Of a stretch of DNA of 64,000 nucleotides, positions 11,336 through 62,135 are shown piece by piece. Every line of letters begins with the position of its first letter. Position 1 is the first letter of the stretch. A model generated the notes under the pieces. That model did not search any database. It saw only the letters and a list, made by a program, of their open reading frames with translations, and was not told the origin of the DNA. Source of the stretch: Saccharomycopsis phalli (taxonomy: Eukaryota > Ascomycota > Saccharomycetes > Ascoideales > Saccharomycopsidaceae); assembly GCA_020342235.1 (NCBI GenBank), contig CP073217.1, forward strand, positions 310,001 through 374,000, read 5' to 3'. The translations under genes were made by a program, and so were the position numbers.

Positions 11336-11435
11336 CTGGAGGAATATTAATAGTATATGTTTCATGACTCAATATTAATAGCATTTGCTTCATGGTTAAT
11401 ACAACTTTGGTGATTAAATCTTGTAATTAAATATG

Positions 11436-12973: not shown

Positions 12974-13140
12974 ATACTGCTGGTCAGTATTACATAAAGT
13001 TAGTATAGTAATAGAAATTGTCGTGAAACTGTGTAATTCAGTAGAAAAATATACAGCAATGAACTTTGTCCATCCATCATTATCGTACGTTATCGGAGAA
13101 ACACCACATGGACGCAAATACACAATTCATCCAAAGCTTG
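12974..13140 (+). other. conserved 3' flank of secreted-protein module 1
   Basis: Sequence after the stop codon (ATACTGCTGGTCAGTATTAC onward) is shared with modules 2 and 3. Homology to module 3 continues to about 13130; module 2 diverges at about 24640. It includes a short inverted repeat, TACTGCTGGTCAGTA, a possible terminator hairpin. Confidence 0.6.
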
Positions 13141-14398: not shown

Positions 14399-14400
14399 AA

Positions 14401-15857
14401 ATGAGTTCTTCCCAAATTGGTGAAACACAAAATGAGTTTGAACCCCCGGGCGACCCATTAGGGCCCCAAACAACAGCAAACCGCATGGATTCCCACGGCG
14501 AATCTATTAACCAACTTCAAATTGACCCAAGTGCCGCCAGGGCACCAGCAACACACACCAACGGCCAAATTAAAAAATCCTATGGCCTCACCGAGGAGGA
14601 CGAAACCGACCCCTCAGAACACGAAACAAGCGGATACAACACCCCACCGGGTGCCATCTCGCCACCCCCACAAACTTGGAACCGACAAAACGTCGAAGAA
14701 AAGCTTATCCAACCTTATGAAACTGACCACCCTCCCAAAGCGGGAACTCAAATTACACATTTGAGGACAGGGCTCGTGACGCTATACAGGCCTACGGAGT
14801 ACTCACTAACGCAATCTCTGGGGCCGCCCGGTTTTACAAACTTGATTCAACCACCTTCCTCCGCCAAGCTGGACAGGAGGAAGCCATTCAATTTCTACAA
14901 ACCCAACATGCATTCCTCGCACCCCCGGCCACCTCATCAAAACGTGGCCACACTGCAACCAGAACCAAAACCCGGGAGCAAAGACCAACTGGCAAAGACC
15001 TTGAAACAGCTGGCAGATTAGCGTATTACGTTAATCCTCAAAGTCGAACATGGAGTGCTGCAAAACGCATCCAATTCGAAGTTGAGTCCAAAGCCATCAT
15101 TGACCAGTCGGCATGCAAGATCAGCATGATCAGCCTCACCGCGGCGCACCACTTCCGGGTCCACCTAAACGAACCCTTCACCGACGAAAACAAGTTGACA
15201 CTCCAATCTGCGCTCGGATCACCAGGACCACTCAACACAAAACCATGGGTCTCACGGGTAATCCAAAACGTCCCAGCAACCTTCTCCCCCGACAACGTCG
15301 CACTCGAAATTTCGAGAACCTTAAGAAATGCGCAGTGGGAAGGAGAAGCCTTGTGTTCCGCACCAAGACCACTCATTAGCCCAGAAAACATGCCGGATTG
15401 GTCCACAATCCCTATCGAATGCACAAAACGCTACTCAGCTCGGTTATTCTTCCCGGACGAGGCAACAGCGCAATTCGCGTCAGAACAACGCTACTGCATC
15501 GAAGGAGAAATCCACAGACTAACCGAGTACAAGGGAAAGCGCAACATCCGGAAACGGACTCACCTTGACCTCCTCAAAGAGTCACCGCGACGGCCACGCC
15601 GAAGCCGCGGCTCCAAGTCAAAAACGAGCCAACCATCTTCCATCCCTCCTGCTTCCACCGCACAAAGCGGCACACCGGGAAACCCAAACGCCACGAGTAA
15701 CCCCTCCAGTCAACCCAAGATCCCAAAAGATCTAGTGATCAATACGACGGAGACTTACCCAGCTCCTGATGAGAACTCGACATCAAGATATAATCTACGG
15801 TCAAGTCGAACTCAGATGGTTTCCCACAGTGACTCAAGCCAAGTTGGATCACAATGA
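14401..15857 (+). CDS. LINE ORF1 (RNA-binding gag-like protein), with a frame break
   Basis: The ATG at 14401 opens a polar Pro/Thr-rich N-terminus (MSSSQIGETQNEF). This frame is open to 15021. The rest of ORF1, however, is in another frame, open from 14727 to 15857 (FEDRARDAIQAYGVLTNAIS, then AYYVNPQSRTW, KPWVSRVIQ, RYSARLFFPDE), and ends with basic, Pro-rich sequence. In the 25-27.7 kb copy the same region is 2 bp shorter and keeps the two parts in register. The break, at about 14727-14764, is therefore best explained by a 2-bp length change in this copy. No CCHC knuckle or RRM was recognised. The stop overlaps the ORF2 start as ATGA, suggesting coupled termination-reinitiation. Confidence 0.8.
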
Positions 15858-18800: not shown

Positions 18801-19207
18801 CAAACCACTATAGGAACGCACGCAAAATCAGCACCACTCCTTTCAAAGTGCACCGAGACAAAACCAAGCTCCTCCTCACGGAAGCACTTGCAGGCCCCAA
18901 GGCAATCCTCAGTTTGGCATCACAACTACTCAGCGGAAAGAGCCTCACAGACGGATCGTTGCTCAAATTATTTGGCAATGATGACCCAAAGTGCAAACGA
19001 TGTGGGACTCACTCCCCCTCCATCATACATGACCTACGATGCCCAGAGCTCCTAGAAGCTCGAATTCTATCGCGCATTGATGACATACTAGATTCCACTC
19101 ATGGCATACGCAATACGCTTGGAAAAGTGTTTGCCGACCAAAAATCAGTCCACAAACTCCTTGAGTTCTACCAGAACGTGTTGGAATATGATTCCTCCAA
19201 CACATGA
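15854..19207 (+). CDS. LINE ORF2: endonuclease and reverse transcriptase, 1117 aa
   Basis: Residues about 1-235 form an EEP/APE endonuclease (ISINIQKRRPHLEAV, VQETARQ, GIIMGDLNAAHPAF, SDHFGLRV) that would nick target DNA. RT follows from about residue 400 to 720: GPDQLTVGQIREL, FRPISLLNILGKIFE, motif A AVLVDIEGAFNNMSH, motif B GVPQGSPISPILF, motif C GFIDDITIV. The C-terminus carries a zinc knuckle CKRCGTHSPSIIHDLRC (C-x2-C-x8-H-x4-C), typical of many LINEs. No RNase H domain was recognised. The frame is fully open and all catalytic residues are present, so ORF2 looks functional. Confidence 0.95.
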   Translation: MKITIISINIQKRRPHLEAVLDHYKNSAVILLVQETARQCNPDETCNHAAYDKYDYLPEVNDQSARPRATTYVNKKIKDQQYGYRTRYINELKDRDCVGITLESRKQVVDIINIYNAPHDSKAHLKSRSLKLVRNYIIDKQGIFNGIIMGDLNAAHPAFTSRNIAGVEARKATLRIDDIMEMGKLQCLNIIDQPTHRDGNTLDVILISDKLEGQVTPQPKLRQFGSDHFGLRVSLRPPDMSNKIKPKTVHNYSKTDWSKVRATLDKRRFASAIHTEDELNKASAKLTQSLRQLIDRNTPMKLVNSRSKRWFTQEVKDAYRTVTSLAMDNPERSNAQKAFQETVQKAKSKCWNDFLLKLDHTTIWTAYRYTNPAKRHRMMKLYEEQHEAFGKTFYPQITVGESLTPASFQPHNTHWDDIEPITKEEIFNTIRYLKLKKAPGPDQLTVGQIRELWHGKTFPDQLELIYNACLKLGAFPKQWKTSITVVIPKPGKANYETPKSFRPISLLNILGKIFESIMTQRLVAKIQLPSYQFGGRKGYCATDAVTTLVNNLKVHAQTHLKDNQKMPLDNSSHSGAVLVDIEGAFNNMSHPILLQKMQAVGAPPEIINWTNNFLQNRSTQLKIDGQLSDQHLPVTFGVPQGSPISPILFMIYTHDLYNRLERKGAVALGFIDDITIVKTGSRGDIEHTLQRCLQECHQWGQENFTSFDYGPKLQYIRFFPNRRRLPNCESSLQLPNGGRKEETNEVKLLGITLDSRLSFRSHLKQTLSKMRRTAEQIRYLSRMTRGTTGRTTIILFKTCAVPIISYGLEVFYNSMTKTQWGQVSVIFNSILRLALGLLRPTSTPIIYIESGIPPPTILLKSLAIMKSMRWFMNTSRQNPVRSSLFQTTTINGSTRIIIPKRPLIQDMLQATAPHNPDIRTFDAAARLLEQRADYALEEQRLEDDPPPMQDPRRTRIQMLKKIASDAATKEWQAMITSTSESFPNHYRNARKISTTPFKVHRDKTKLLLTEALAGPKAILSLASQLLSGKSLTDGSLLKLFGNDDPKCKRCGTHSPSIIHDLRCPELLEARILSRIDDILDSTHGIRNTLGKVFADQKSVHKLLEFYQNVLEYDSSNT

Positions 19208-19466
19208 TGAGATTCAGCGGTCACATTCGACAACAAGAGTGACCAGGCTTCTTACACAATCCATACAAGCACCAAGCACCAACAATATAACTGCCCCCAC
19301 TGAAGTTTTTAATCCCAAGCAACCAAATGAGGGTTGACAAAGGGTTTTCTTCAACAGCAATGCTGCCTCAGGATGTTCCTGAGTGAAAATATATCTGTCG
19401 AATCACCGTATTGCCGGAGACAATATATAGCTAAATACAAAAATAAATATTATTATTATTATTATT
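19208..19466 (+). other. LINE 3' UTR and (ATT)n tail
   Basis: Ends with GAGTGAAAATATATCTG, then GGAGACAATATATAGCTAAA, AAATAAAT and an ATT repeat. Relatives of this end occur as isolated tails at about 48230-48350, 48500-48650, 53555 and 57040-57105. The SINE at 60701-61017 ends in a related sequence. Confidence 0.85.
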
Positions 19467-21268
19467 AAATTCTTCACACAAGGAATCTTCTTAATAGCAT
19501 TGGTTAGCTTTCCCCTCTTCCCTTTAACCGGCAATTGCTGATAAGGAATGAGCTTAATTTTTGGAACCAAGTCAAAGTGGACCTTCTTTGTTACTTTTGG
19601 GGTTGTAGCTTGGCCGTCGTTTCGTCTTAGAGCACTCTTCAACACGATTGGCGGCTTTACAAGTTCCCGCGTCGTGTTACCGGAGGTCATCATCACCCCG
19701 GGGATGGAGTGAAAAGAGCCAGGTCTCCACTTCCACCTGGAAAACCCACTACGCGAGCCATTCGCCCTGATATCGGAGTCAACACAGAGCCCAGAAGAAG
19801 CCGATCCGGTGAGGTCGACATTCTGCAATGACGCAGAAATCTCACCCACTGGATCAGGTCCGGCAAAAGAGCCAGTCCTCTTAGACTTCTTCCTGGCACC
19901 TGGAAGTCTCCGACACATTCGGAAAGTCCTTGCGCAACTCTTCGGGATTTCGGTGAATTCCATTGTCTTTTCGCCGTACCCTAGCGATCCAACTTCCTCT
20001 GGTCCCTGACAGGGTCCCTGATCTGCCACTTTCTCGAGTGAAACTGGCTCTAAAGCCCCTGTGTTTAATATATCGGCTTTTTCGGAAACTCTAGTCTTGC
20101 TACTCACCTTCAAGGGGAAGAATTTCCGCCACAACCTAGTTACCGTTAGTATAAATTTTTCTGGGGACTTGCGCTTTTCCAAAGGAACATCCGGATCATT
20201 TTCCTTTGGATTTCCGTACTTCTTGTGTTTCTCTCCGTTAACCTCTGACGATTGTTCGTCAAGGGTTAAAAGCTCAGCTGACTGGCACTGGAATGAACCA
20301 GTTTCAGCACAGTGGATCGTAGAGCCGCGGGGTATATTAGAAACACATTTATCATCACTGACCGTGACTATCTTTTGCTTGCCAGATGAGCCTATAAGAC
20401 AGCCATTTATATTCTCTCTCACTACAACCTCTCCAGGTTTTTTTGCAAATCCAACTGGAGCTCCCTCATTGGGGATGGTTTTGTAGAGAGACAAAGAATC
20501 AACCGGTGCTAGGTTTGAGTTTTCAGAGTCCTGACGCCAGGAGGCTGCAATACCGTTTTCTTCCAAGAATTCAGCAAGACCTTTTTCCTCCCAGGAGATT
20601 TCCCCTTCCTCTTCTCCTTGTCCCTCTCTGCTCACCTTTTTAGCTTTATATACTATACTTTTTTCCTCCAAAGCAACACTCCTCTCCTCCCACAAATCAT
20701 CCTCCTCAAATGATCCCATGGTAACTTCTACCATCTCGCCTACTCCAAATTCCACATCCCTTTCGTCGTTGTTGTTGTCATCATCATCCTTTTTACCATT
20801 CTGGATCAATGACAAAACTTCCATGTATTGCTCTTCATCGATACCGTACTCGTCAGCAGGCTCACGAGCACGCAACCAACTAAAGAATCCGCCAACCATA
20901 CCAACAGATACCAAAAGAGACATTCCAATAACCAACACCGACATCCCATGTAACATGGTAAGTCTCTTGGCATCAATACCGGCCAATTGAGTAACCAATT
21001 GGTAGAAGTAACCCCGAACGTACGCAATAGGCTCCAAGTTTTCTCCCTCGAGACAGACTTGGGCAAAGTTAAGACTCATATCGTCAAATATCCAGCACTG
21101 ACTGGCCGGATCAAAGACGGGACGTTCGAATAGGGCATCAACATAGTCGAAATTCTCGACTGACGGGATAGTTTCATTTAAATCAGGGGCGTCGCTTAAT
21201 AGCAACACGTTAGTCATGAATCCCTGGCTAAAAAGCCATAGGATATAGCGCATCAAACTGAGTATCAT
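19403..21268 (-). pseudogene. 5' part of an unknown membrane-protein gene split by a LINE
   Basis: The ATG at 21268 opens a protein with a hydrophobic N-terminus (about residues 1-23; signal or anchor), a luminal-looking segment and a second membrane span at about 100-125 (MSVLVIGMSLLVSVGMVGG). A long acidic, then basic region follows, with Lys/Ser-rich stretches. Native sequence ends in KKIPCVKN at 19467. The last 21 residues before the stop at 19403 (a run of Ile, then FVFSYILSPAIR) are read from the antisense LINE tail. The uninterrupted gene would encode 933 aa, ending at 13384. No family is recognised; two N-terminal membrane segments and a large charged tail would suit an ER or nuclear-membrane protein, which is only a guess. 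Confidence 0.82.
19467..19481. repeat. 15-bp target-site duplication, right copy
   Basis: AAATTCTTCACACAA, matching 14384-14398. The first bases merge with the (ATT)n tail, so the boundary may be off by one or two bases. Confidence 0.93.
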
Positions 21269-22372: not shown

Positions 22373-22935
22373 AAACCACCAACAGCACTGCTCCCATTGA
22401 AGCTTTTCGGCCCATATAGTAGTCTAGGGGTTATAAAGAGTTTTCTTTAACAGAATGCTGCCTTTTGCATATCCGAAATAAGAGAGCATTTAGGAATTGT
22501 GACTCTTGTGTTTCTATCGTTCTGAGTAGTTTGGAACAAACCGAAGCGGACAGGGTCTTGGCTTGATGTGTTTATAAACCATAGTATGGATTTCATTATT
22601 ACCAAGGACTTGAGTAGGATCTTCGGTGGTGGAATACCACTTTCGATGTAGATGATAGTGGCGGGCATGGGCACAAGTAGACCTAACGCCAGTCCTAGAA
22701 TTGAGTTGAATATTACATTTACTTGTCTCCACTGGATTTTGGTTATGTTATTATGGAATACTTCGATTCCGTATGATACGATTGGAGTTACATATATTTT
22801 AAACAATATTATTGTGGTGCCTCCCGTGGTTCCTCTTGTCATTCGGCTTAAGTACCTTATTTGTTCAGCAGTGCGGCACTTCTTTGACAATACTTGCGTG
22901 AGATGGCTCCTGAAGCTGATTGAATCTTGGAATTA
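22373..22935 (-). mobile_element. rearranged LINE fragments at the start of module 2
   Basis: 22466-22930 is an antisense ORF2 piece (CRTAEQIRYLSRMTRG, YIESGIPPPKILLKSL), open for 147 codons. 22373-22465 resembles the LINE 3' UTR (CTCCCATTGAAG, GTTTTCTTTAACAGAATGCT) but in the opposite, plus orientation. The two pieces are joined head to head near 22465. They form the left side of the second secreted-protein module. Confidence 0.75.
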
Positions 22936-22936
22936 A

Positions 22937-23030
22937 ATATGGTCATTGGCGAGCATCAAACCTCGGCATGTTTTCGTTGCAAATTCCAGCTGCAGTTTAC
23001 AAGGTTTCTTGCTGAGTCACAGACCATTCT
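22937..23030 (-). other. tRNA-like sequence (module 2)
   Basis: The counterpart of 11436-11545: TGGTCTGTGACTCAGC at the 5' side, a B-box-like GGTTTGATGC and a terminal AATGACCA. It is decayed and not a functional tRNA. Confidence 0.45.
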
Positions 23031-23743
23031 AAAACTCCTACAATTTGTACATGGTAATAATCATTTCAATCATCAATGGACTCGTCCCAGACACATTTTT
23101 GCAATTCTCATCTGGGCACGTTTATGAATTCTTGTCATGGTACATTGGTAATAAGGTACCAAGGCAAAGGAAGTAATAGCTTGGTGAAGAAATAATAGCT
23201 TGTCTAAGAAATAATAGTGTGATTAGGAATTATAACTGGTGGGGTAAGCCTGATTAGGAATTACGACTGGTTGGGTAAACCTGATTAGGAATAACAGTTG
23301 AGTAGCAAGAATAGCCGGAACACAGAATCAATCAGCCATGCACTTCTGACTATGGTAACACCAACCCTCTTGCCGTATTATACCCCTATTTGTATTGACC
23401 TCTGTGAATCTCATACCGTCTCTGAGACATGTTCACCAAGGACATGCACCCTCCATCATGATAACTCAACATGTGACAGAAATGTCTCAGAAATACATTG
23501 TGAACCTACATGCCAAGAACAGTACCAGAAAAATGTCTTGATATTGCCTATGGTAAACAGAGTGTTTTGCTGCATATTGGCTGTCAACTTGACATTATTC
23601 TCTTGGAACCTTCCATACATGTTCCACCTAGTCATTTGCTACCACAAGTCCGTTGAAACAAGAGATAGAGGAATATTCAGACGGACTGTAATATAAAAGA
23701 AGTCAGTTTGTCATGAAACCACAACAATCAAATCATCTTAACC
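23031..23743 (+). promoter_or_regulatory. conserved upstream region and promoter of secreted-protein gene 2
   Basis: Homologous to 11546-12310 and 55398-56028. TATAAAAG at 23692-23699 lies 52 bp before the start codon, the same spacing as in copies 1 and 3. The inverted repeat is reduced to TCTGAGACAT/ATGTCTCAGA. Confidence 0.65.
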
Positions 23744-24514
23744 ATGCAACTCCACTCTCTTTTTACTCTTGTTTTCCTTACTTCGCTTGCTGCTGCTGCA
23801 CCAATTGGCGAAACCACCACTGCGCCTCAGCCTACTGCGATATTTTCTTCGGCTGTTACTTCTTTCCCTTCTGATTCAGCTGATTCCGATTATGCTTTGG
23901 CCGACGATATTCAAGAAAAGAAGGCCGCCGGGAGAAAAGGTGGTAAAAAGGGTGGCTCAAACAAACCAGCTAGAAAGCCAGAGACACCAGTTGCTATCAA
24001 TAAGACACCAAAAGTACCAAAGCCAAAAACACCAAAGCCAGAGACACCAAAACCAAAAACACCAAAACCAGTGACACCAAAGCCAGAGACACCAAAGCCA
24101 GAGACACCAAAGCCAGAGACACCAAAGCCAGAGACACCAAAGCCAGAGACACCAGATGCCGACCATAAGAAGCCAGATCCACCAGCAGCTATTCCACCAG
24201 CAGCTAATCCACCAGCAGCTAATCCACCAGCAGCTAATCCACCATCCGACTCTTCAAAACCACAAAAACCAACCACAACCAAGGCTGGTCTTATGGATTC
24301 ACTTGCAAGTGGATTTGCTCCTTATGGACAGCTTGCGGGCGATGCAGGGAATGTGATTGGCTTAGGCACTCAGCTCTATGGTATTGTAAATGGTCATGCC
24401 ACTGATTCTTCTCAAACCACTGGCTCTGCTCAAGCTACTGATTCCGCTCAAGTCACTGATATTGCGGATGCCACTGCTCAAACTTCGGGAACCCCACAGC
24501 CAACTTCAGCGTAA
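23744..24514 (+). CDS. secreted Pro-Lys repeat protein, family copy 2, 256 aa
   Basis: Signal peptide MQLHSLFTLVFLTSLAAAA, then the conserved PIGETTTAPQPTAIFSS segment and DDIQEKK. A central array of the hexapeptide TPKPE-T/K-type unit has about a dozen copies, followed by PPAAN repeats. The C-terminal domain is conserved (GLMDSLASGFAPYGQLAGDA, GIVNG, then Thr/Ser/Gln/Ala-rich sequence to GTPQPTSA). There are no cysteines. Compared with copy 1, the flanks and both terminal domains are nearly the same but the centre is a different repeat (Lys-Asp-Gly versus Pro-Lys-Glu-Thr). Likely secreted or wall-associated; function unknown. Confidence 0.82.
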   Translation: MQLHSLFTLVFLTSLAAAAPIGETTTAPQPTAIFSSAVTSFPSDSADSDYALADDIQEKKAAGRKGGKKGGSNKPARKPETPVAINKTPKVPKPKTPKPETPKPKTPKPVTPKPETPKPETPKPETPKPETPKPETPDADHKKPDPPAAIPPAANPPAANPPAANPPSDSSKPQKPTTTKAGLMDSLASGFAPYGQLAGDAGNVIGLGTQLYGIVNGHATDSSQTTGSAQATDSAQVTDIADATAQTSGTPQPTSA

Positions 24515-24649
24515 ATACTGCTGGTCAGTATTACATAAAGTTAGTATAGTAATAGAAATTGTCGTGAAACTGTGTAATTCAGTAGAAAAATATACAGCAA
24601 TGAACTTGCCCATCCATCATTATCGTATGTTGTCTTGGAAACAGAAGCA

Positions 24650-32683: not shown

Positions 32684-33002
32684 GTTATTTTTGCCAATTT
32701 AAGAGTTGGACGAGAGGTATAATATTATTTTACTGTACGACCAAGGACAGTGACAGTTAATGGTTAACTAGGTACTAGCCTACCACAGCACCATGTAGCT
32801 GAAAGAAATCACTGCAACAGAGATAACAACTTCTGGCTAGCACTTGTGCAAGTGCAATATAAAGAGCATTGGGTAGATGAGTATAGCCGAGTAGAATAAT
32901 GAGTATAACCACATTTCAAGAAGGTGACTGTTTGGAGGTATACTTTGTAGAATTTCTCAGAGTAAGGAGATAGTCTGTCAAAGATTACATAGATTAAGGA
33001 GA

Positions 33003-33344
33003 GAAAATGACGTCATACGAAGTATGATACAAGAATATTGTCACGTGATAAGTGGAATGAGCAGCATGGGAAGCATGGACGTCGATCTATGGTGATGTGC
33101 AGTATGACTCCGCCACAACACAGGGGACACGTATATGTGAGAGATGCAGTTATAAAAGATAGTAGTTTAGACCTGAAGATCTTTAGTTCAAAATAAATAT
33201 AGTATACGTTTGTAAGATAGCCCGGCACTATCAATAATACCTCGTATCTTACTGAGCTCACTACTACTATTACTTATTATTTATTTATTACTACTAGTGC
33301 AAGGTCCCCATCAGAGAAGAGACAACACTAAGTACGTCAGAAAA
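33003..33344 (-). mobile_element. solo LTR with 5-bp target duplication
   Basis: The 332-bp LTR at 33008-33339 starts TGACGTCATACG and ends AAGTACGTCA. It is flanked on both sides by GAAAA (33003-33007 and 33340-33344). It differs from the LTR at 699-1030 at only about two positions and lies in the opposite orientation to it on the plus strand. It is what remains after recombination between the two LTRs of a full element, and is young by its near-identity. It sits 324 bp downstream of tRNA-Val. The chosen strand label is nominal: the LTR reads 33008 to 33339 in the sense in which the left-edge element reads on its minus strand. Confidence 0.93.
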
Positions 33345-34792
33345 TAGCTAGAACAGTAACAAGAAGATGAATTATCTATAAGTGGGCAAGGATGCCATAA
33401 GGAAAAGTGCTTGATTAGGACATACCTTGAAAGTCTGTTTTTGGAACCGGAGAGCAAGACAGAATTCGCGCAACGTTGATGCCGGCTTTGTATCTATTTC
33501 ATGATGGATTAGTACTCTTTGAACGGCAGGAGCTCATTAATCCAAAGTAGTCTACCTTCGGTCCCCTACATGATGCTACGGCAACGCAATCCATGTGACG
33601 GAAAAGTTACAGCTAATCTCAAGAGCCTCGGTAGAACCTAAACGGGTACTTGGAAAATTAGTAATTTGGTGGCATATTCTCACAAAACCAGGACCTCATG
33701 CAATGCCAAAGTAACCGTCAAATAATAGAATGACCCTATTGCAACGCTCGTGAATTTACTGTCCTAACCATTGACTCAAGAACAGATTTTCAAAGATTAG
33801 TTGGGAGATTTTATGTGTTGCGGAGTTTTCCTCCCAACTGGCGGCAACGTCATTGGTCTAGCTGGTGTAGTTTCAATTTGGGAGCATAGTATAGCTATCA
33901 CCTTAATAAATATTATTACAATCTCAATTGTATAGAGCTCTTGGTCAAATTCTATTGCAAATTGAAATATAAACTCCAATGGAATATACTAAAGTCTTTG
34001 CCAATTTTGTCCACAATCTTGGTTTACTAGATGTTGGAAATGATTCTTTTTATGATTCGGCAGCCAACTTGGAAAAATAGCGAATCAACAAAATTCGAAT
34101 GAAAAACTGTTACAAATATGACTCAGACGTAGCCATGGTGTCTCGCCCTTGTTGCGATGTTATGGAAAAAAGGATATACTTATTCAGCTAATGTAGATTG
34201 CGATACACGAGTAAACTGCCGTACATTGCAATGAGGCGAGTTTTATTTGTAAAGTGGTGAAAAACTTGTGCTCTAGTTGTGGGGGATTGTTGAACCTGGG
34301 AAGCTGGGATTGCAGTCTGGTTAAATTGTTAGTGCTTGACACCAAGCCTTTCCAATGGAGGTCGACTATGATTGAGGACGGTGCCGCTATGTGATTGTCA
34401 AAAGAAAACTCTACGACAGAGATGAAAAAATTTTGACTAGTGCTGGTAAAAATGTTGAGAAATGGGCATTGGAGCAGCACTGATCTTTTGCCTAGGGCAT
34501 TGGAGAAGACTGGTGTTTATGATTGGCGACTATGATTGACTACTCTAAATTAACAACTATGATTGACTACTGTAAGTGACTACTGCAATTGAGTTATTCT
34601 AGACAGCTATTTGAGGTGACGGGTCTTTAATGTTACCGTGCTTCTGAGTGAAACAATCCATAACCGTCGGCTACAATAGCTAAATATAGAATACTCCTCT
34701 AATGTACTCGTGATATATGATGTGATTCGAGTAATTGGTATAATCGAAGTAATCGGTGTTTAGTATTGGTGTTGGTGTTGGGTATATGTGAT
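33345..34792. other. spacer upstream of SEA4
   Basis: No gene or mobile element recognised. Short repeats GACTATGATTGACTACT occur near 34526-34590. It presumably includes the SEA4 promoter. Confidence 0.5.
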
Positions 34793-37513: not shown

Positions 37514-39205
37514 AAGGAGTAGCGAGAGAGGGTGCGAGAGAAATAAAGAGGAGGTGAAATAGCGAAAAGTAGTGAAATTAAAATACAGTGGAAAGCTGCC
37601 ATTTAAACTCACATCAATACCCTCGCAAGCTAAATTCCATCAATTGATTGTATAACAAGTCCGTTCTCGCTCCAAATGCTACAGTTTACATCATGCTCAC
37701 CAGTTGCTTTAGCATGTAAATGTAAATTGTATAAATTATACACCAATTCTTTACTCAATTAATTAGTACTCTCTAATTGTGCTGAATAACTGAATGGCCA
37801 AGTTTTCATTCTCACCTTTGCAACCCGTTCAAGGCTCAATACCAGTCAGTTTTTGATTATACAAACTTAAGGCCCATAATTGTTTTATTGCCTTGGGTCA
37901 GTGGGTCAGTCATCTTGGTTATGCTGATTCAAGTATTATTCTATAGACACTCATTACAAGACCACCTGTTTATACAATGGAGCATATACGGTAAAATATT
38001 CTGTAATAAGTTCGTACCTACCTTGATTATTTCTGATACAAGACTCAAACTCCTACAATTTCTATTATATATTTACAAAAAACACATTCCCTAGACCATC
38101 TGACGCAGCTTTAGGAGATCCGTACCGGTCATCTTGGTTTCTCTTTCCGGGCTACTCGCCACTATACAAATCCCGCCTTGTTCCCAAATAATCCAAGCGA
38201 ACATATTTAGCAATCTTATCAACAAGTATCTTAGTTATTATATTACATATTCCGTCATGTAGTTATTTTCAAAACTGTAAAACGGCCCAGTTCTTGGTTC
38301 ATCACATTCTCCCTGACTTGAAATTACCATATCTCCCAATAAATGTGCTCATATTTAGAAGTTTTGCTTCGCTTTTTCCATTATGCTTCTATTCTTATCC
38401 TGCCGAGATAACCATATTGAAAGAAAAAACAAACACCAAAGGATTGGTTCTTTTCTTTCAAAAGTCTCATTTCCATGTATAACTAGTCTCACTTTTGAAT
38501 AGTCAAGTGAATAAGCAAAAACAATAAGAGTCCCAAGTAAATGCCCAAGTTAATAGGCATCATTTAAATACACAGATATCCAGTAATCAGTAGCTGCTTC
38601 CAGTGATCCAGCCAAGTTCATTCTCTTTTTATCACTTCATTGTCCTATCACAATTTCGGTGATTTAGCGGCGATTTTACCATCAAAATTGAATCAACAAT
38701 CTAGAAAATAGCAAATAGCCCTCAAATGCTCGTCACACTTGCACTAGCCAGAAGTTTTTCCCAATGAGAGTATTGACAACATATCGTCGCTGTCGAGGTT
38801 AGGCTAGCACCTAGTTTATCATTGAGGCGCAGTCCTTGAAGAATAAAATTCCCAAAGTGCTATAGCCTTGGATGATGTTGTTATTATATTATTATCATCA
38901 AAATTGATTGTAGAGAATGAAGTATAGGTACATATTCTTAATGGCAGATAATTGAATAGTGTTGTAATTGAGCCAACTGGTGGTATCTACTGCCAAAGAC
39001 AAGCCTCTACTCTCCAAACCCTTTGGCGGTTCAAAGAAAATTTTAATCTTAATCAGGAAACAATAGGCAAAGGACTCACAGCCAGAGCGTCAGCTTGCCG
39101 CCTCTTTACAGACGCCAAAGCAATTCACTTGTAGGATTCTACAAAATCTCTGGATAAGTAGATGATAACTGTTTCACTGCATCACAAGAAGGGGCCGAAC
39201 AGGTA
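37514..39205. other. spacer downstream of SEA4
   Basis: A 3' spacer without a recognised gene. It is AT-rich with no obvious repeat. Confidence 0.5.
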
Positions 39206-39415
39206 GTACTTGGGGTGAGATACCATAGTTCTGAGTCATTTCTCTTTAACAGTTTCTTGAAGATCAAGTTGAAAGTTTTTATCCCAAAACGGTTTGTCTC
39301 GACTTTAAATTTAGCGGCGCCGTCCTTGTTTTTATAACGCGAAATATCAATCTCGCTTGTTTAGGGAAGTCTAGTATAGCAATAGAAGTGAATAAACATT
39401 GTTATTATTATATTA
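39206..39415 (+). mobile_element. SINE-like repeat copy (3' body and tail)
   Basis: Contains the shared body GAAAGTTTTT..., TAGCGGCGCCGTCCTTG, the segment GCGAAATATCAATCTCG, AGTCTAGTATAGCAATAG and a tail AATAAACATTGTTATTATTA. These match the SINE at 60701-61017 and the copy ending at about 54495. A tRNA-like head was not recognised, so the 5' end is uncertain. Confidence 0.6.
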
Positions 39416-45280: not shown

Positions 45281-46268
45281 GGGAATGGCTGAGGTGTGGA
45301 GCTAGGTGTTGAGCTGAGGTGTGGAGCTAGGTGTTGAGCTAGGTGTTGTGTCAAAGTGATGTGCCAATTGTGGATTTACATTGCGTGACAAGTCTCCAGG
45401 TTGCCAGTGTACTGTTGGGATATGGTACTTGACAATGCGCCCCTCAGCTCAAACAGTATATGCCTATATAAGGATTATTAACTAATAATTAATTGAAAAT
45501 ATTACGGTATGTTGAACCGAGCATTAACTTGGACAGCAAAGTCGGTGCAAAGTCGGCGCAAAAGTCGACTGGCATTTTTAGATGGAGGATTACATAATTT
45601 AAATGGCTGGTGGAGTCTAGCCTGGTTTATACAAGAACTGCGGAAATTGATCTAAACGGTTAGCTGGTAATCAATCCAGAGGCGCAGTTGAACGTACTAA
45701 CCTGGCAAATTTTAAGCAGTCTTGTGATGGTTCCGTCTAGCGGCTATGCATGGTGGCTGATTTGATGTTTATTGTATTATTGGAATACTGTAATTGCGTT
45801 GATTTTGATATCAATCTTCATTTCAATTTTTTAATATCAATCTTCATTTCAATCTTTTGATCTTATTCTCTCAATTCCAATCTTTTCCATTTTTAATCTT
45901 CTCAATCTTTCCATCTTTCTACAATTTCAATTTCAATTTCTATTTCAATTTTCAGTATTTTCAACCTTCAACCTTCACCTTCACCTTCACCTTCACCTTC
46001 ACCTTCACCTTCACCTTCACCTTCACCTTCACCTTAATCCTAATCTCATCCTTACCCCTTTTCTGCAAACAGTCCTATACCCTTTAAAAAACCACTCCCC
46101 ACCTTCAGACTATTCAGAACTCCACTCCAAGCTTGGCGCCAAAATATCACGTCTTAGAAGCACCAAGTCCGTGAGGAAAATACAATTTACATCAATATAA
46201 ACAATAATCAAACCATGCCTCCGTGTGCATTTCAAAATCTACAATACAACCCTCTATACACCTCCAGT
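45281..46268. other. 3' spacer of PKC1 with simple repeats
   Basis: Contains GAGGTGTGGAGCTAGGTGTT-type repeats right after the stop (45291-45345), a pyrimidine-rich stretch (45820-45965) and a hexamer array (CACCTT)n at about 45969-46034. No gene. Confidence 0.6.
45969..46034. repeat. hexanucleotide array (CACCTT)n, about 10 copies
   Basis: Uninterrupted hexamer repeat within a pyrimidine-rich tract upstream of the 46561 gene. Confidence 0.9.
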
Positions 46269-46436
46269 GACCTAGGCGAAAGCTCATGCCCTCAAATATC
46301 CATTACTCTACATATTCCTCAGCACTAGTGAAATTTTTCTTCGCTCTATAGTTTTCTTCCAACAACTACATGGCCATCCTCAGCCAGATGGCAAGAATAA
46401 ATCTCCTCTAAGAGCCTAGTAGAGCCTTAAACATGT
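46269..46436 (+). mobile_element. SINE-like repeat fragment
   Basis: CTAGGCGAAAGCTCATGCC, TTTTCTTCCAACAACTACAT, AATAAATCTCCTC and AGAGCCTAGTAGAGCC match the body of the repeat at about 54290-54480 in the same order. The ATT-rich tail is lost. It lies in the promoter region of the 46561 gene. Confidence 0.6.
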
Positions 46437-52674: not shown

Positions 52675-53549
52675 GGCGTGACAACGTAATGAGAATAAAG
52701 TGGGTTATTGCCATGGTTAGACAGCATGAATCCAAAGTATTTGGCTGGTTGGTGATGATTAATTCCTATTTCACCTGGTTATTCAATCCCAATGGAGTAC
52801 AAAAATATAGGGTAGTTTATTCAGTTTACATTGCTTGTAGTGGATAATTGGCAACCCATGAACCTGAATAGGCCATTATCAATAGTGTGGCGTATTTCTA
52901 ATCATGCTTGGGTATTTAATTGTACGTGTGATTTGTTTCTTTTTCTGTGAATAATCTAAAATGGTAGTGATTGCTGTTTTCTATTGTCAAGTGGATATCC
53001 TATTCATTAGTTGAGATTGTCACCCGGTTTCTCTTACCCGTTTCTAAAAGTTGACATCACTAAAATATAATACCATTAGATATTAATGCTGTTTTAGGTC
53101 ATGCTGAATTCACGTATACTGTCTTTGTTGCAACCTAAATTATTCCAATCACGTGACTACTTGGTCTAGTAACATGTCGAGATTTCATAATATTTATTTT
53201 ATATTTGGCCATATATTGTCTCCGGAAATATGCTAATTTAAAAGGATATTTTCACTTGAGAAACCTGGAGGCATTGGTGGCACCAATTGTACAGCGTATA
53301 CAAAGACATAATAATAATGTTTATTGTAATATAGTAACTAAGATACGTGTTGATAAGATAGTTAGAATATATTCACTTGACCTATTTGGGGGGCGAGATT
53401 AGCTATATAAGTGGTGACGGAGTCAGGAAAGGAGAGATGTCAGCGTGCGGCACTGCTGCCTTAGTGTTGCGTCAACTGGTCAAAGGGATGTGTTTAGGGT
53501 AATTATCTAATACTTATCACGGGAGTTCGAGTCTTGTATCGGAAAGAAT
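52675..53549. other. spacer without a recognised gene
   Basis: AT-rich. TCACGTGAC lies at about 53149-53157, and TGTAATATAGTAACTAAGAT at about 53328-53347 starts a dispersed repeat also near 28161 and 51040; a CTATATAAG TATA-like element follows at about 53403. An unplaced LTR remnant is possible. Confidence 0.45.
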
Positions 53550-53554
53550 TAAGA

Positions 53555-54062
53555 TGAGTCAGAACTTTATTACATTTATTTTTGTTTTTAGCTATGTATT
53601 GTCTCCGGCATTACGGTTGTTTGGCAGATATATTTTCACTCAGGAACATCCTGAGGCAGCATTGCTATTGAAGAAAACCCTTTGCCAACCCTCACTTGGT
53701 TGCTTGGGATTAAAAACTTCAATGGGGGCAGTTATATTGTTGGTGCTTGGTGCTTGTATGGATTGTGTAAGAAGCCTGGTCACTCTTGTTGTCGAGTGTG
53801 ACCGCTGAATCTCATCATGTGTTGGGGGAATCATATTACAACACGTTCTGGTAGAAATTAATGAGTTTGCGGACTGATTTTTGGTTGGCAAAGACTTTTC
53901 CAAGCGTATTGCGTATGCCATGAGCGGAATCTAGCATGTCATCAATGCGCGATAGAATTCGAGCTTCTAAGAGCAATGGACATCGGAGGAGCTTGGATCT
54001 GTCTCAGCGCACTTTGATCAGCCTGGTGCTGATTTTGCGTGCGTTCTTATAGTGGTTTGGAA
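53555..54062 (-). mobile_element. LINE 3' fragment, 5'-truncated
   Basis: Reads antisense to the plus strand. The tail AAAAATAAATGTAATAAAG is at about 53560. The 3' UTR is closely similar to 19210-19460 (CTGAGTGAAAATATATCTGC), and then comes the ORF2 end (AYAIRLEKSLPTKNQ in an alternative frame, as in the full copy). Near 54000-54060 it jumps to sequence equivalent to about 18805-18850, so it is internally deleted. Confidence 0.85.
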
Positions 54063-54224: not shown

Positions 54225-54495
54225 GATGAATGTTAGGAGGGCTACCATGCTAGTACCCTGGGGAGGGGGTGGCTCAGGACACCTTTAAAGATCTAGGCGA
54301 AAGCTCATTGTCCCTCCAATTCTCATTACTTTACATATTTAAAAGCTCTAGTTGAAAGTTTTTTATCTCTGTTGCAGAGTTTTCTTTCGACGACTACATG
54401 GCAGCGCCGTCCTTAGTCGTAGACGGCGAAGTATAAATCTCCTCCAGGAGCCTAGTATAGCTATAGCCTTAAATAAATATTATTATTATTATAAT
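54225..54495 (+). mobile_element. SINE-like repeat copy
   Basis: Body: CTAGGCGAAAGCTCATTG, GAAAGTTTTTTATC, GTTTTCTTTCGACGACTAC, GCAGCGCCGTCCTTAG. It ends with AATCTCCTCCAGGAGCC, TAGTATAGCTATAG, AAATAAAT and an ATT tail (54474-54490). The 3' half matches the SINE at 60701-61017 and the copies at 39.2 and 46.3 kb. The 5' head (about 54225-54290) is GC-richer and may be a decayed tRNA-like head, but boxes A and B are not clear. It abuts the 3' flank of module 3. Confidence 0.65.
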
Positions 54496-54737
54496 TATTG
54501 ATTAACATGTTTTTATTCCACGTCGAGCTTAGTAAATCTGCAAGATATTTGGACAACTGTATATTAGCAACTGTTATATTGTGAATTGTGTACTTGCATC
54601 CATACGGTCTTTCGACGACAACGTACGATAATGATGGACGGGCAAAGTTCGTTGCTGTATATTTTTCTACTGAATTACACAGTTTCACGACAATTTCTAT
54701 TCCTATACTAACTCTATGTAATACTGACCAGCAGTAT

Positions 54738-55397
54738 TTACGCTGAAGTTGGCTGTGGGGTTCCCGAAGTTTGAGCAGTGGCATCAGCAATATCAGTGAC
54801 TTGAGAAGAATCAGTGGCATGACCATTTATAATATCATAGAGCTGAGTGCCTAAGCCAATCACATGCCCTGCATCGCCCGCAAGCTGTCCATAAGGAGCA
54901 AATCCACTTGCAAGTGAACCCATAAGACCAGCCTTGGTTGTGGTTGGGTTTTGTGGTTTTGAAGAGTCGGCTGGTGGATTAGCTGCTGGTGGATTTGGCT
55001 TCTTATGGTCGGCATCTGGTGCCTCTGGCTTTGGTGCCTCTGGCTTTGGTGCCTCTGGCTTTGGTGCCTCTGGCTTTGGTGCCTCTGGCTTTGGTGCCTC
55101 TGGCTTTGGTACTTTTGGCTTTGGTACTTTTGGTATCTTATTTATAGCAACTGGTGTTTTTGGTTTTCCAGCTGGCTTGTTTGAACCACCCTTTTTACCA
55201 CCTTGTTTCCCGGCGGCCTTCTTTTCTTGAATATCGTCGGCCAAAGCATAATCGGAATCAGCTGGATCAGAAGGGAAAGAAGTAACAGCCGAAGAAAATA
55301 TCGCAGTAGGCTGAGGCGCAGTGGTGGTTTCGCCAATTGGTGCAGCAGCAGCAAGCGAAGTAAGGAAAACAAGAGTAAAAAGAGAGTGAAATTGCAT
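54738..55397 (-). CDS. secreted Pro-Lys repeat protein, family copy 3, 219 aa
   Basis: Signal peptide MQFHSLFTLVFLTSLAAAA from the ATG at 55397. Then come PIGETTTAPQPTAIFSS, DDIQEKKAAGKQGG and a central array of the hexapeptide APKPE/VPKP type (about eight units). The conserved C-terminal domain is GLMGSLASGFAPYGQLAGDA, then a shorter Ser/Thr/Gln tail ending GTPQPTSA. It is closest to copy 2 but uses Ala where copy 2 has Thr in the repeats, and has fewer PPAAN units. TATAAAAG lies at 55442-55449, 52 bp upstream of a functional-looking start. Function unknown; secreted or wall protein. Confidence 0.82.
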   Translation of the reverse strand: MQFHSLFTLVFLTSLAAAAPIGETTTAPQPTAIFSSAVTSFPSDPADSDYALADDIQEKKAAGKQGGKKGGSNKPAGKPKTPVAINKIPKVPKPKVPKPEAPKPEAPKPEAPKPEAPKPEAPKPEAPDADHKKPNPPAANPPADSSKPQNPTTTKAGLMGSLASGFAPYGQLAGDAGHVIGLGTQLYDIINGHATDSSQVTDIADATAQTSGTPQPTSA

Positions 55398-56028
55398 GGT
55401 CAAGATGATTTGATTGTTGTGGTTTCATGACAAACTGACTACTTTTATATTACAGTCCGTCTGAATATTCCTCTATCTCTTGTTTCAACGGACTTGTGGT
55501 AGCAAATTACTATGTTGAACATGTATGGGAGGTTCCAAGAAAATGTCAAGTTGACAGCCAATATACAGCAAAACACTCTGTTTACCATAGGCAATAACGA
55601 GACATTTTTCTGGTACTGTTCTTGGCATGTAGGTTCACAATGTATTTCTGAGACATTTCTGTCGCACGTTGAGTTGTCATCATGGAGGGTGCATGTCCTT
55701 GGTGAACATGTCTCAGAGACGGTTTGAGATCCACATAGGTCAATACAAATAGGGGTATAATGTGGCAAAAGGGTTGGTATTACCATAGTCAGAAGTGCAT
55801 GGTTAACTGATTCTGTGTTCCGGCTATTCTTGCTACTCAACTGTTATTCCTAATCAGGTTTACCCAACCAGTCGGCATTCCTAATCAGGCTTACCCCACC
55901 AGTTATCATTCTTAATCACACTATTATTTCTTAGACAGATTATTATTTCCTAAAGACTATTGTTTCTTCACCAAGCTATTACTTCCTTTGCCTCGGGACC
56001 TTATTACCAAGGGTCGAGGAAATGAGCA
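55398..56028 (-). promoter_or_regulatory. conserved upstream region and promoter of secreted-protein gene 3
   Basis: Homologous to 11546-12310 and 23031-23743, in reverse orientation. It has the TATA element and the reduced inverted repeat. Compared with module 1, about 110 bp are missing next to the tRNA-like part. Confidence 0.65.
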
Positions 56029-56098
56029 AGAAACCTTGTAAATTGCAGCTGGAATTTGCAACGAAAACATGTCGAGATTCGATCCTCGGTGATGATCA
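56029..56098 (+). other. tRNA-like sequence (module 3)
   Basis: The counterpart of 11436-11545: GAGCAAGAAACCTTGTAAA, GCAGCTGGAATTTGC, and a T-arm-like GTCGAGATTCGATCCTCGG. The A-box side is damaged by the nearby deletion. Confidence 0.45.
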
Positions 56099-56189
56099 TA
56101 TTTAATCCCAAGATTTAATCACCAAGGTTGTATTAACCATGATGCACATGCTATTAATATTGAGTCATGAAGCATATACTATTAATATT

Positions 56190-57105
56190 CCTCCAACTAC
56201 CGGAAGGAGAAAACGAGCAAAGTCAAGTAATTAGGCATTACCCTTGGTTTAAAGCTCAGCTTCAGAAGCCGTCTAAAGTAAACATTGTCTAAGGTGCGCC
56301 GTACTGCTGAACAAATAAGGTATTGAATCATAATGACAAAGCCCAATTGGATCAGGTCAGTGTGATATTCGACTCAATCCTGCGACTGGCACTAGGATTC
56401 GTTAGGCCCGCGTCCAGATGCTCGAAAAAATGGCTTCAGGCAACCAAAAAGTGACAAGAAATGGTCACCTCTAATAGTAACACACTTTCCACTAGAGGCA
56501 TGGACGGAAAATCAGCGCCATGCGGCTCAAAGTGCACCGGGATAAAACCAAGTATCCCCTTACGGAGGCACTCGGGGATCCAAAGCAATCCTCAGTTTAA
56601 TATCTCAATTACTCCGTGGAAGAAGCCTCTTGGATGGCTTGATGTACATACTATTTGGCAATGACCCAAAATGAAAATGATGTAGGACATTCTCCCTTTT
56701 ATAATACACGACCTCAGATCAGAGCTCCTAGGGGCTCTATTCTATTGCACATTAATGAAATACGCAGCACAGTTGGAAAAGGGTTTGCTAACCAAAAATT
56801 AGTCAATAAAAACTACCATTAAAACTACTCAAATCCCGCTTGGAGTTTTTCTACCCATTTGAAGGGTTTTCTCTGAGCAACATATATAGCGGCACCGTCC
56901 TTGGTCTTGGACGGTGAAGTATCAATTACATTGGAACCGAATTATAGATATAGCATAAAGTAAAATAATACATACAAATTGAGTTGAATCCTCGACACTG
57001 GAAACTGGTGGGTTTTCTTTAGCAAAGCCTCGGGATGTGAGTGAAAATATTTGACGAATCGTGTTTCAGAGACATGGCTAAATACACAAATAAATATTAT
57101 TATTA
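56190..57105 (+). mobile_element. LINE fragment of module 3, with a SINE-like piece inside
   Basis: LINE ORF2 3' sequence from about 56210 (equivalent to 18085 onward: TCAAGTAATTAGGCATTACC) with several internal deletions, followed by the 3' UTR and tail at 57035-57105 (GTGAGTGAAAATATTTG, GAGACATGGCTAAATAC, AAATAAATATTATTATT). Within it, 56836-56965 matches the SINE body (GGAGTTTTTCTACCCATTTG, GAAGGGTTTTCT, AGCGGCACCGTCCTTGG), so a SINE piece appears inserted or recombined into it. Decayed. Confidence 0.72.
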
Positions 57106-59440: not shown

Positions 59441-60688
59441 GTAGATCTCACTATTTCTATCTTTCAAATCCCTTCAGTCTACTCAAATATCAAATCAATA
59501 TCCAAACCAGTCAAATCTCAATATCCACTCAACAGCATATACCCTCTTTTATACTCCACCCATATCTCGGCCACGGAGCGAATTTGTCTCCGTCACTAAT
59601 GCATCGAACTCTGAAAAAAAAATCAGGGTCACTACACATTGCTGCATTAGCTCCTGCACAACACTCTTGCTCGACCCTTCCCCACTTGCCAAATTCCAGC
59701 CAAAAAAAAACTACCCAAACCACCCAAAAAACAACACAAAAACCCTCTTGATTGCCCACCAAAACCCACAGGGCCGCCCCAGCCCTTCCCACGTGCACAG
59801 ATCCACCGTCAATCATTGTCCTTTTCCAAAGACTCTGCTGCGATCGACATGCATAGGCTCCCCAACGGATACAGCGCAAATAGAGTCACGTGGAGATGGG
59901 CTCCGCTGCAACGGCACCTATCGTTCCATTGTCAGCGTTGCTTTTTTTTTTCACTCCATGGTCCAATCCAGAAATGGTGCATCCAAAATGTCTCACTAAA
60001 AGCGGCTGATCAGTCTCGTAAACCGCGTTCCGACTTACCATCTGAAATTATCCATGTCAATTTGTCATCGCACAAGCCACACATCTGCCAATTTACGTGC
60101 TTTTGCAGGGTTGTGAGCCGGAAATCGTGGTTTATTCCCTCCGAAAGGGCCAAGGATCCTGGTAATTGCCACTTTGCCCTTGTCCACACTCTTCCAAGGA
60201 TTATCCTAATCTCCAGCCTTGTTTTCCACATGGATCAAACTTTCGTGCCGCGTTCCGCTCATCCACATGCCAACCGGCTAGGACAACTATCAAAGACTTG
60301 GCCTCACAATCAACTTTGCTGGATCAGTACCTTGGATCAGCGCCTATTTCCATGTCAAATGAGTGTTTTCCTGTGCCAAGACTATTGGTCCTTGTATGAT
60401 ATCACTTGGCAAAGATCACGCATGCGTCATTGTAATTAAACTTTGACCGTTGTCCATGTGACCTATTTTTGTTCAAGTGTCCAGGGGTTTTCATTGTGAT
60501 TTGCGTGATTCATGTGATTTATCAAGTATTTCTCATCCAGTAGTTTTCACCGAGTGATTTGTGACTTGCGTGATTTATGCGGTTTATTAAATTCCTTATC
60601 AAATTCTTTTATCCAGTAATTCATATCGTATTCACTAGATATTCTGAGCGTGAGACAAGTATTAAGTAGAATGTATTCACGGTACAGT

Positions 60689-60700
60689 ACAATGGGTCAT
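60689..60700. repeat. 12-bp SINE target duplication, left copy
   Basis: ACAATGGGTCAT, identical to 61018-61029. Confidence 0.92.
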
Positions 60701-61017
60701 TATTATTATTATTTATTTGTGGTCTATAGCTATACTAGGCTCCGAAGAGATTGATATTTCACTGCTTGAACTATGAGCAGCGCCGCTACGTTGAGTGTTG
60801 AAAGAAAACCCTTCAAATGGGCAGAAAAACTTCCAACGAGGTCTTAAGTGTGGTCTTTCATGGTTTGACTCTGGTCGCCTATGGGGTCTCCCTCCATTAC
60901 AGAAGTACCTGCCCGGCTGGCTAACCAAAGGGGGCAGCAGAGGGAGTCGAACCTCGGACGTTCCCCGTTTCTGTCGTGGATGGAACGTGCTCCAATTCGA
61001 CCATGCTCCTGCCCCCT
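60701..61017 (-). mobile_element. full-length tRNA-headed SINE, 317 bp, with 12-bp target duplication
   Basis: Flanked on both sides by ACAATGGGTCAT (60689-60700 and 61018-61029). On the minus strand it begins AGGGGGCAGGAGCATGG. The tRNA-like head has an A box TGGTCGAATTGG (60992-61003), an anticodon-like stem GTTCC/GGAAC, a B box GGTTCGACTCC (60943-60953) and a closing TGCTGCCCCC that pairs with GGGGGCAG of the 5' end. An unrelated body of about 160 bp follows. The 3' end is AGTGAAATATCAATCTC, GGAGCCTAGTATAGCTATAG, AAATAAATAATAATAAT. That end resembles the LINE tail (GTGAAAATATATCTG, GGAGACAATATATAGCTAAA, AAATAAATATTATT). The perfect duplication shows a recent insertion. Confidence 0.88.
60935..61017 (-). 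other. tRNA-like head of the SINE
   Basis: Has both pol III internal promoter boxes and a partly foldable cloverleaf. The acceptor region carries a 3-nt insertion (GGGGGCAG-GAG-CA against TGCTGCCCCC) and the T stem has mismatches, so it is not a working tRNA. The parent tRNA is not identified. Confidence 0.65.
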
Positions 61018-61029
61018 ACAATGGGTCAT

Positions 61030-62135
61030 ACAAAGGTGAATACACATTTGTACGTAACAAAATGTCCAGTGGAGCTAGTATTCAAAGCCAGGTGAACTAC
61101 CTGGACCACCCATTGGACCTCTGGGATTAGATGACATTCACTTACAGCAGCAAGAAAATACATAGACTTATAATACAATCCATAGTCATTGAATACCTCT
61201 GCTTATTTAAACTTTGACAGCATTCATCCACTGGTGCTAGTGTAAATGACAATGAGACAATTCCCCATATGTAATTACCATTTTCCAGAGCTAGCTGCAT
61301 TCTATAGCAAATTAATAATAGTATTCAAGGCAATAGCTCACTTCAAAGGAAATGTATACTTTTCCTCTACGACTAGGACGGTGCATCTCAAGAATCAACT
61401 AGGTATTAACCTAATCTCACACCAATATGCAGTCTCCAAATACTCTATAGCAGGAAAACCTTTCAACTATTGCTTGTGCAAGTAGAAGGAGCAATGTGCC
61501 TGCCTAGACCTCGGATATCGGAGTTTATAAGTTGAAGTATTCATGACTATGAACCACAAGCCATCATGAGACTATTCCACTGAGCAAGTGAAGTATCAAT
61601 CTGAAAATTGCCTGGGGACAAGTGCCTCATATCTAATCCAAGTCTCCAAGTCTCACCTATAATAAAAATACTGGCTTGACTGGTGGAGACGATTCCTTTG
61701 TAAATCTATTCTTGGGCTCAAACAGTCAGAAATCAGTCTACGGAGTTTACTGTAATGGAATGTTCCGATATGATGAGACTCAGCACTCAAACTTACAACG
61801 ACTCCAAGCTTCCTACAACGACTCCAAGCTTCCTACAACGACTCCAGGCTTCCTACAAGGGAACCAAGCTTCCTACACTCAAGTAGCAGGAATTGATCAA
61901 ACTGTACAAATGAAAATTTCAACTCAGACTGCTACGAGATATTGGGTTTGCCAGTGGTTTCCTTTATCCATGCCTATTCAATAGTTTGTGTCCAATGGTA
62001 CAATTGTTGTCATTGTTGTCATGTATCCTGCTAATGCATCACTACCTAGTCCTATATCTCATATTCCACACCTATGCAACCCACTCAAATCTCATAAATC
62101 CGTGTTTAATGTACGCAAAATGGACTCGCAAATTC
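61030..62135. other. spacer downstream of KIN3
   Basis: No gene. 61795-61874 is a 20-bp tandem repeat (ACAACGACTCCAAGCTTCCT, four units, the last diverged). Scattered short matches to the SINE body (ACGGTGCATCTCAAG near 61379, GTGAAGTATCAATCTG near 61588) hint at an old copy. Confidence 0.5.
61795..61874. repeat. 20-bp tandem repeat, four units
   Basis: Unit ACAACGACTCCAAGCTTCCT; the third unit has one change and the fourth several. Confidence 0.9.

Follow-up and report, generated by a model that had tools for sequence, protein, structure and literature searches.

The window, by which we mean the whole 64-kb stretch of DNA analysed, contains a SINE-like element that runs on the minus strand (sense) from 61016 to 60701 (316 nt) and is flanked by perfect 13-bp direct repeats (TACAATGGGTCAT), one at 61017-61029 beside its 5' end and the other at 60688-60700 beside its 3' end. 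The element begins with a head of 87 nt (60930-61016, minus strand), which starts with GGGGGCA, carries an A-box and a B-box and is predicted to fold as a long hairpin; this is followed by a body of about 89 nt (60841-60929) without known relative, which has a weak match to a copy at 39.2 kb only, and by a LINE-like 3' tail (60701-60840, nt ~177-316) with two hairpins and an (AAT)n end that adjoins the repeat. As a short non-coding unit of 316-317 nt with a target-site duplication, it is built like a SINE. The repeat measures 13 bp when a T common to both copies is counted and 12 bp otherwise, the 13-bp counting placing the first bases of the element exactly at GGGGGCA, and none of 60 flank shuffles gave an equally good repeat at the ends of the element. 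Both the 12-bp target duplication and the complete 317-bp unit with an (AAT)n tail, which had been proposed in a sequence-only reading of this DNA, are therefore real, and the perfect duplication marks the element as a young insertion. No inverted repeats were found at its two ends, a simple repeat being present at one end only, and the full element folds only slightly better than its shuffles (z -1.32).

Target duplications were sought at the ends of 17 segments and were convincing only for this element and for a LINE at 14399-19466. None of the 15 other segments had a convincing one, including the six other tail copies tested, those at 33.8, 34.4(-), 39.2, 46.3, 54.3 and 56.8 kb. Among the segments tested, the 34.4(-) copy has a 9-bp repeat that was equalled in 2 of 60 shuffles, and the 46.3-kb copy an 8-bp repeat that was equalled in 17 of 60.

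Within the head, the A-box (TGGTCGAATTGG, 61003-60992, nt 14-25) and the B-box (GGTTCGACTCC, 60953-60943, nt 64-74) match their consensus without mismatch and are separated by 38 nt, a normal spacing. A loose scan of both strands of the window gave 33 box pairs, among which only that of the element is perfect, confirming the A- and B-boxes described earlier for the head; in the same scan the real tRNA-Val showed one mismatch in each box. No perfect pair was present in 10 simulated windows or in 20,000 random 317-mers of the same composition, random sequences that do not model the hairpin of the head. At the level of motifs, an internal Pol III promoter is thus predicted near the 5' end of the element.

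The same head was not called a tRNA by ARAGORN, for which the tRNA-Val at 32610 is the sole tRNA of the window, and it went unreported by the Rfam tRNA model even at E up to 10. No credible Rfam hit fell on the element, either at the gathering score or with E relaxed to 10, which leaves the head without a known RNA family. A cloverleaf was not predicted; the predicted fold of an 88-nt head segment is a single long hairpin (-42.9 kcal/mol, z -3.65, equalled by 1 of 200 shuffles), in which the cores of the A-box and B-box pair with each other, the two halves of the head being near-palindromic. As partly complementary arms of a single hairpin, the two boxes cannot be counted as fully independent coincidences. 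Given the negative tRNA models and the hairpin fold, the proposal that the head is tRNA-like or tRNA-derived is unsupported: tRNA-derived SINE2 elements are recognized by a head alignable to a tRNA, and neither ARAGORN nor Rfam aligned this one.

Two runs of T lie inside the element, TTTTT at nt 188-192 (60829-60825) in the tail and TTTT at nt 209-212, and a run of at least five T is found at the same place in the LINE and in five of the six other tail copies examined. According to one report, 5-7 dT terminate Pol III in vitro (PMC8531034). The runs in the element would tend to stop Pol III, and because of the internal T5 run a full-length element RNA would need read-through or another polymerase.

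Together, a tail profile and a covariance model identified ten tail copies in the window, including that of the element. A second type of body, here called body B, was recognized by the tail HMM and body comparison in the copies at 54271-54492 (+), 46251-46434 (+) and 34355-34515 (-), the last of which lacks the 3' half of the tail, and it has weak support in a decayed copy just past the element (61313-61529, minus strand; tail E 8.6e-4 with the HMM and 0.053 with the covariance model). An old tail copy at 39190-39412 (+), detected by shuffle z-scores, weakly shares the body of the element. Among the remaining copies, there are one at 33790-33921 (+), found by the tail HMM and the covariance model, one at 56833-56972 (+), found by alignment and the covariance model and embedded in an old LINE copy (56007-57105) at its 3' end, and two decayed ones, at 32717-32872 (-; E 1.4e-7, covariance model E 4e-4) and at 1069-1187 (-; z 10-11, covariance model E 9e-5, not among the HMM hits). 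The weakest are those at 61.4(-), 32.8(-) and 1.1(-) kb. The idea that the 56.8-kb copy represents a second type of LINE with a SINE-like 3' end was rejected, as LINE sequence resumes after the tail copy. A 20-nt pattern of the tail was absent from viral and from prokaryote contigs (0 in each), collections that are not meant for yeasts.

Outside the element, the head was not found in any of the nine other tail copies, so that the 64 kb hold a single headed copy. Comparison of the head with 12 segments, which include seven of these nine, gave scores at the level of shuffles (z -1.0 to 2.7), and the copies at 32.8(-) and 61.4(-) kb showed no head match in a BLAST of the window. The body of the element matches the 39.2-kb copy with z 4.0 (score 14.5 vs a shuffle maximum of 14.1), a value that falls to z 2.2 with a longer upstream stretch and rises to z 5.1 (0/300) with a shorter one, and it scores z 2.1 or lower against 11 other segments. 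Body B is common to the copies at 54.3, 46.3 and 34.4(-) kb, with z 8.4 to 15.4 and 0/300 shuffles in each pair, the match of the 61.4(-) body to these three being weak (z 1.5 to 3.4); a comparison of what lies upstream of the copies with body B gave no common sequence (six pairs, z -0.7 to 1.2). As body B differs from the body of the element (z -1.1, 0.8 and 2.5), the tail has been joined to at least two bodies. The copies that the sequence-only reading had placed near 39.2, 46.3, 54.2 and 56.8 kb do exist, but they match the tail, and the 39.2-kb copy alone weakly shares the body; likewise, its statement that the element belongs to a family rather than being a single pseudogene is, within the window, true of the tail but not of the head.

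The tails of the short elements contain two stems, H1 (GTTGGAAG/CTTTCAAC in the element) and H2 (CGCTGCT/AGCAGTG). In a MAFFT alignment of seven tail copies, 82% of the hairpin cells were paired and two-sided changes were seen in 10 of the 15 hairpin pairs; the covariation score was 0.375 vs a shuffled mean of 0.235, with 1 of 500 shuffles as high, and versions slid along the alignment reached at most 0.159. RNAalifold, unprompted, recovered 14 of these 15 pairs, but with a covariation term of +0.35, that is, no net bonus. When the arms were re-dealt, the observed pairing was reached in 226 of 5000 trials for H1 and in 44 of 5000 for H2, which makes the support good for H2 and moderate for H1. 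Folds of single tail sequences were not unusually stable (z -1.84 to 1.62, 11 tails). Judging from the alignment, the tail family appears to keep two covarying RNA hairpins. In the LINE, a 7-bp stem (CTCAGGA/TCCTGAG) immediately precedes the matching GTGAAAATAT; the covariance model left this stem unaligned.

This LINE, a candidate partner of the element at a distance of 41 kb, occupies 14399-19466 (+), appears intact, with endonuclease and reverse transcriptase domains and a 3'UTR that ends in (ATT)n, and is bounded by a 15-bp duplication (AAATTCTTCACACAA, 14384-14398 and 19467-19481; 0/60 shuffles as good). Its reading frames are ORF1a (14401-15021) and ORF1b (15126-15857), both without a Pfam match, and ORF2 (15854-19207, 1117 aa), which overlaps ORF1b by 4 nt and encodes an endonuclease (Exo_endo_phos_2, 7.3e-11) and a reverse transcriptase (RVT_1, 1e-29). 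ORF2 also contains QE, GDLNAAH, SDH and FIDD and a C-terminal Cys/His cluster, which we take to be LINE motifs. With an endonuclease, a reverse transcriptase and a target duplication, the LINE is a non-LTR retrotransposon, and its best solved relatives are of the R2 type; no relative of ORF2 was found in viral contigs, a collection not meant to hold yeasts. The start at 14399 looks like a true 5' end, since a diverged LINE copy at 27.7 kb opens with the same letters, and further LINE fragments lie at 11.1, 22.5, 25.2-27.7, 53.6-54.0 and 56.2-57.1 kb. The LINE splits a host gene on the minus strand (13384-14383 and 19467-21268) whose frame, once the LINE is taken out and one copy of the duplication kept, stays open for 933 codons (600 before and 333 after the site), indicating that the insertion is recent. 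In its interrupted state, the host gene has a first part that ends in a run of Ile read from the (ATT)n tail of the LINE.

The element tail resembles the 3'UTR of this LINE with z 13.7 (0/300 shuffles), and still with z 6.9 (0/300) when the AT-rich last 30 nt are left out; the corresponding values for the 53.6-kb LINE fragment are 8.3 and 6.4. In the absence of these 30 nt, z is 0.0 to 1.4 for the element against the four remaining LINE 3' ends, so that it resembles two of the six, and five other tail copies tested against the 19.4-kb LINE end in the same way score z -0.4 to 3.4. An HMM trained on the tails of five short elements, to which the LINE did not contribute, finds the LINE 3'UTR at 19302-19458 (model positions 13-146, E 0.0066), and an HMM of the LINE tail finds 36 nt of the 54.3-kb copy only (E 0.077) and does not reach the element. 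The covariance model aligned the last ~40 nt of the LINE plus a few bases (E 0.02) and skipped the hairpins. The similarity to the LINE is firmest in the last ~40-45 nt of the tail, where these comparisons firmly indicate a 3' terminus shared by the tail family and the LINE. The element has a 3' end in common with a LINE of the same genome, and the hairpin region upstream of that terminus is likely to be homologous to the LINE in the case of the element, this homology being less secure for the family.

The genetic code of the host was examined through leucine codons in four proteins aligned with solved homologues (fumarate-reductase-like, Pkc-like, Nek/Kin3-like and Sea4-like), using all 22 alignment blocks, with one non-significant Sea4 stretch left out. 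CTG faced hydrophobic residues at 1 of 13 positions vs 141 of 187 for the other five leucine codons (Fisher p 1.5e-6), and it is rare in ORF2 of the LINE (3 of 112 leucine-type codons). On these counts CTG is not read as leucine in the host, which is therefore a budding yeast of the CTG-reassigning group. The repeats, the boxes, the tail and the CTG counts together support what had been proposed at the outset, a short retroposon with Pol III boxes in a budding yeast; as a whole, that earlier observation was confirmed in part, and its interpretation is partly supported.

The window contains other repeats as well. An inverted pair of about 335 nt (697-1035 and 33003-33341; 99.4% identical), starting with TGACG and ending with CGTCA, looks like solo LTRs. 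Another dispersed repeat is present at 53300-53573 (-), where it ends in AATAAACATTATTATT, and at 38002-38247 (+), with 3' pieces at 28.2(-), 51.05(-), 32.2(+) and 39.8(-) kb; it is possibly a second short LINE-dependent family, and its antisense box pair, with one mismatch per box, is no better than expected by chance. A segment that occurs three times (11411-13129, 22917-24643 and 54582-56121) contains a small secreted-protein-like gene (MQxHSLFTLVFLTSLAAAAP) and variable repeat arrays, each copy adjoining LINE fragments, and a B-box-like motif lies at 11456 within a stretch that the copies have in common. A telomerase reverse transcriptase gene (Telomerase_RBD 7.1e-24) is found at 6396-8567 (-). 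Tandem arrays of short units (70 TRF rows, of which some overlap) are numerous throughout the window, as are fragments of LINEs and tails, and this part of the genome may be subtelomeric or rich in repeats for another reason.

Pairs of SINEs and LINEs have been described in filamentous fungi, among these Mg-SINE of Magnaporthe with MgL/MGR583 and SINE2-1_BG of Blumeria with Tad1-24_BG (PMC3747384, PMC5135761). These SINEs, like the element described here, share their 3' end with the partner LINE, but they are tRNA-headed elements of filamentous fungi, whereas our element comes from a budding yeast, has a head that the models do not take for a tRNA and is represented by one headed copy. Similarly, AfuSINE2-1a of Aspergillus fumigatus has a tail that resembles the 3'UTR of I-1_AF, a LINE present in its own genome, and a trinucleotide-repeat end, in a set of elements with 4-14-bp duplications (PMC5063351); unlike our element it has tRNA similarity, and the term 'stem-loop' is absent from that paper. 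In stringent LINEs a 3' stem-loop is essential, and for UnaSINE1/UnaL2 of the eel and other stringent pairs the model is that a 3' stem-loop and a short repeat are recognized by the reverse transcriptase of the LINE (PMC5135761). Such recognition has been demonstrated experimentally for pairs of the UnaSINE1/UnaL2 type, whereas for our element we infer it.

LINEs themselves are known in yeasts. Those of CTG-reassigning species include Ace, Bri and Can of Scheffersomyces stipitis, LINEs being reported in six of eight species examined (PMC8546629), and Zorro is a LINE of Candida albicans. A terminal poly(A) was among the features by which the S. stipitis LINEs were identified, whereas the LINE at 14399-19466 ends in (ATT)n, and the term 'sine' does not occur in that paper (PMC8546629), nor the term SINE in a review of yeast transposons (PMC7175516). 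The genome of the yeast Yarrowia lipolytica combines LINEs with a large number of Pol III genes, whose spread by LINEs has been put forward there as a speculation, with no SINE family described in the parts of that report covered (PMC5014426). Among Candida lncRNAs, automated LINE/SINE labels have been reported with low prevalence (PMC8677757), and SINEs form one class in a survey that covers 1,239 fungal assemblies (PMC12543289). Apart from automated labels, no SINE family of Saccharomycotina was found described in the part of the literature covered, in which few subscription journals are represented.

Taking these data together, it is probable that the element, which belongs to a CTG-reassigning budding yeast, is a short non-autonomous retroposon that functions like a SINE and is mobilized by a LINE. 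RNA polymerase III would start near its first base through the internal A- and B-boxes and would have to read past the internal TTTTT; the 3' tail of the resulting RNA, in which two hairpins are followed by TAGTATAGCTATAG..AAATAAATATTATT and a trinucleotide repeat, would imitate the 3' end of the LINE RNA; the LINE protein would bind this tail and nick the target DNA, and target-primed reverse transcription would then copy the RNA and give rise to the 13-bp duplication. The ends of the element, its duplication and boxes, the tail family with its covariation and an intact-looking LINE with a similar 3' end are all directly observed in the window; from them we infer transcription by Pol III, binding by a LINE protein and mobilization by the LINE at 14399-19466. 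The single headed copy, the negative tRNA models and the T5 run inside the element weigh against this reading.

It is conceivable, and in our judgement rather unlikely, that the element is a one-off chimera, formed when a reverse transcriptase switched template from a LINE-type RNA to an unrelated small RNA; there would then be no SINE family, and the other tail copies would be 5'-truncated LINE-derived or other elements. Such an origin would agree with the head being seen once in the window and with the T runs of at least five in the LINE and most of the other tail copies examined, which suit a Pol II transcript, and it has a precedent in the LINE-1 chimeras with small RNAs described in mammals (PMC13174262). 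However, the insertion is young, yet its tail is ~26% divergent from its best match in the window and its head matches no known RNA family, which argues that the RNA was not a fresh fusion of a known host RNA to the LINE at 14399-19466. It also speaks against such a chimera that the body is shared, albeit weakly, by the 39.2-kb copy, and that three copies combine the same tail with another short body and carry no LINE coding sequence.

We give a lower probability still to a SINE-like element driven by Pol II or by flanking promoters, its boxes and hairpin head being coincidental or otherwise used. The internal T5 and T4 runs, the head without a tRNA fold and the partial complementarity of the box cores, which reduces their independence, are consistent with such an element, but it has to regard as accidental two perfect boxes at normal spacing, a combination that did not arise in the random sequences, in which the hairpin was not modelled. 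A fold-back or MITE-like DNA element, to which the near-palindromic head might point, is highly improbable because the two ends are asymmetric: terminal inverted repeats were not found, the simple-repeat tail is one-sided, and the 13-bp duplication and the LINE-like 3' end are also at odds with it. The element is most likely a SINE-type parasite of a LINE, of the kind known in filamentous fungi.

More tentatively, and at somewhat less than even probability, a single LINE lineage may sustain several short parasites that differ in their bodies: the headed element together with the related 39.2-kb copy, a family of three or four copies with body B, and perhaps the 53.3/38.0-kb repeat. These would have in common a structured, covarying 3' tail, and in at least one of them transcription would depend on a Pol III promoter in the form of a hairpin, which is no longer, or never was, tRNA-like. 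If this is true, Saccharomycotina would have their first described SINE/LINE pair, and the finding would extend the described SINE families to this group. Budding yeasts are genetically tractable, and LINE retrotransposition has already been studied in one of them, with Zorro; given a native SINE/LINE pair whose tail is short and structured, one could test directly how the reverse transcriptase of a LINE recognizes the RNA of its parasite.
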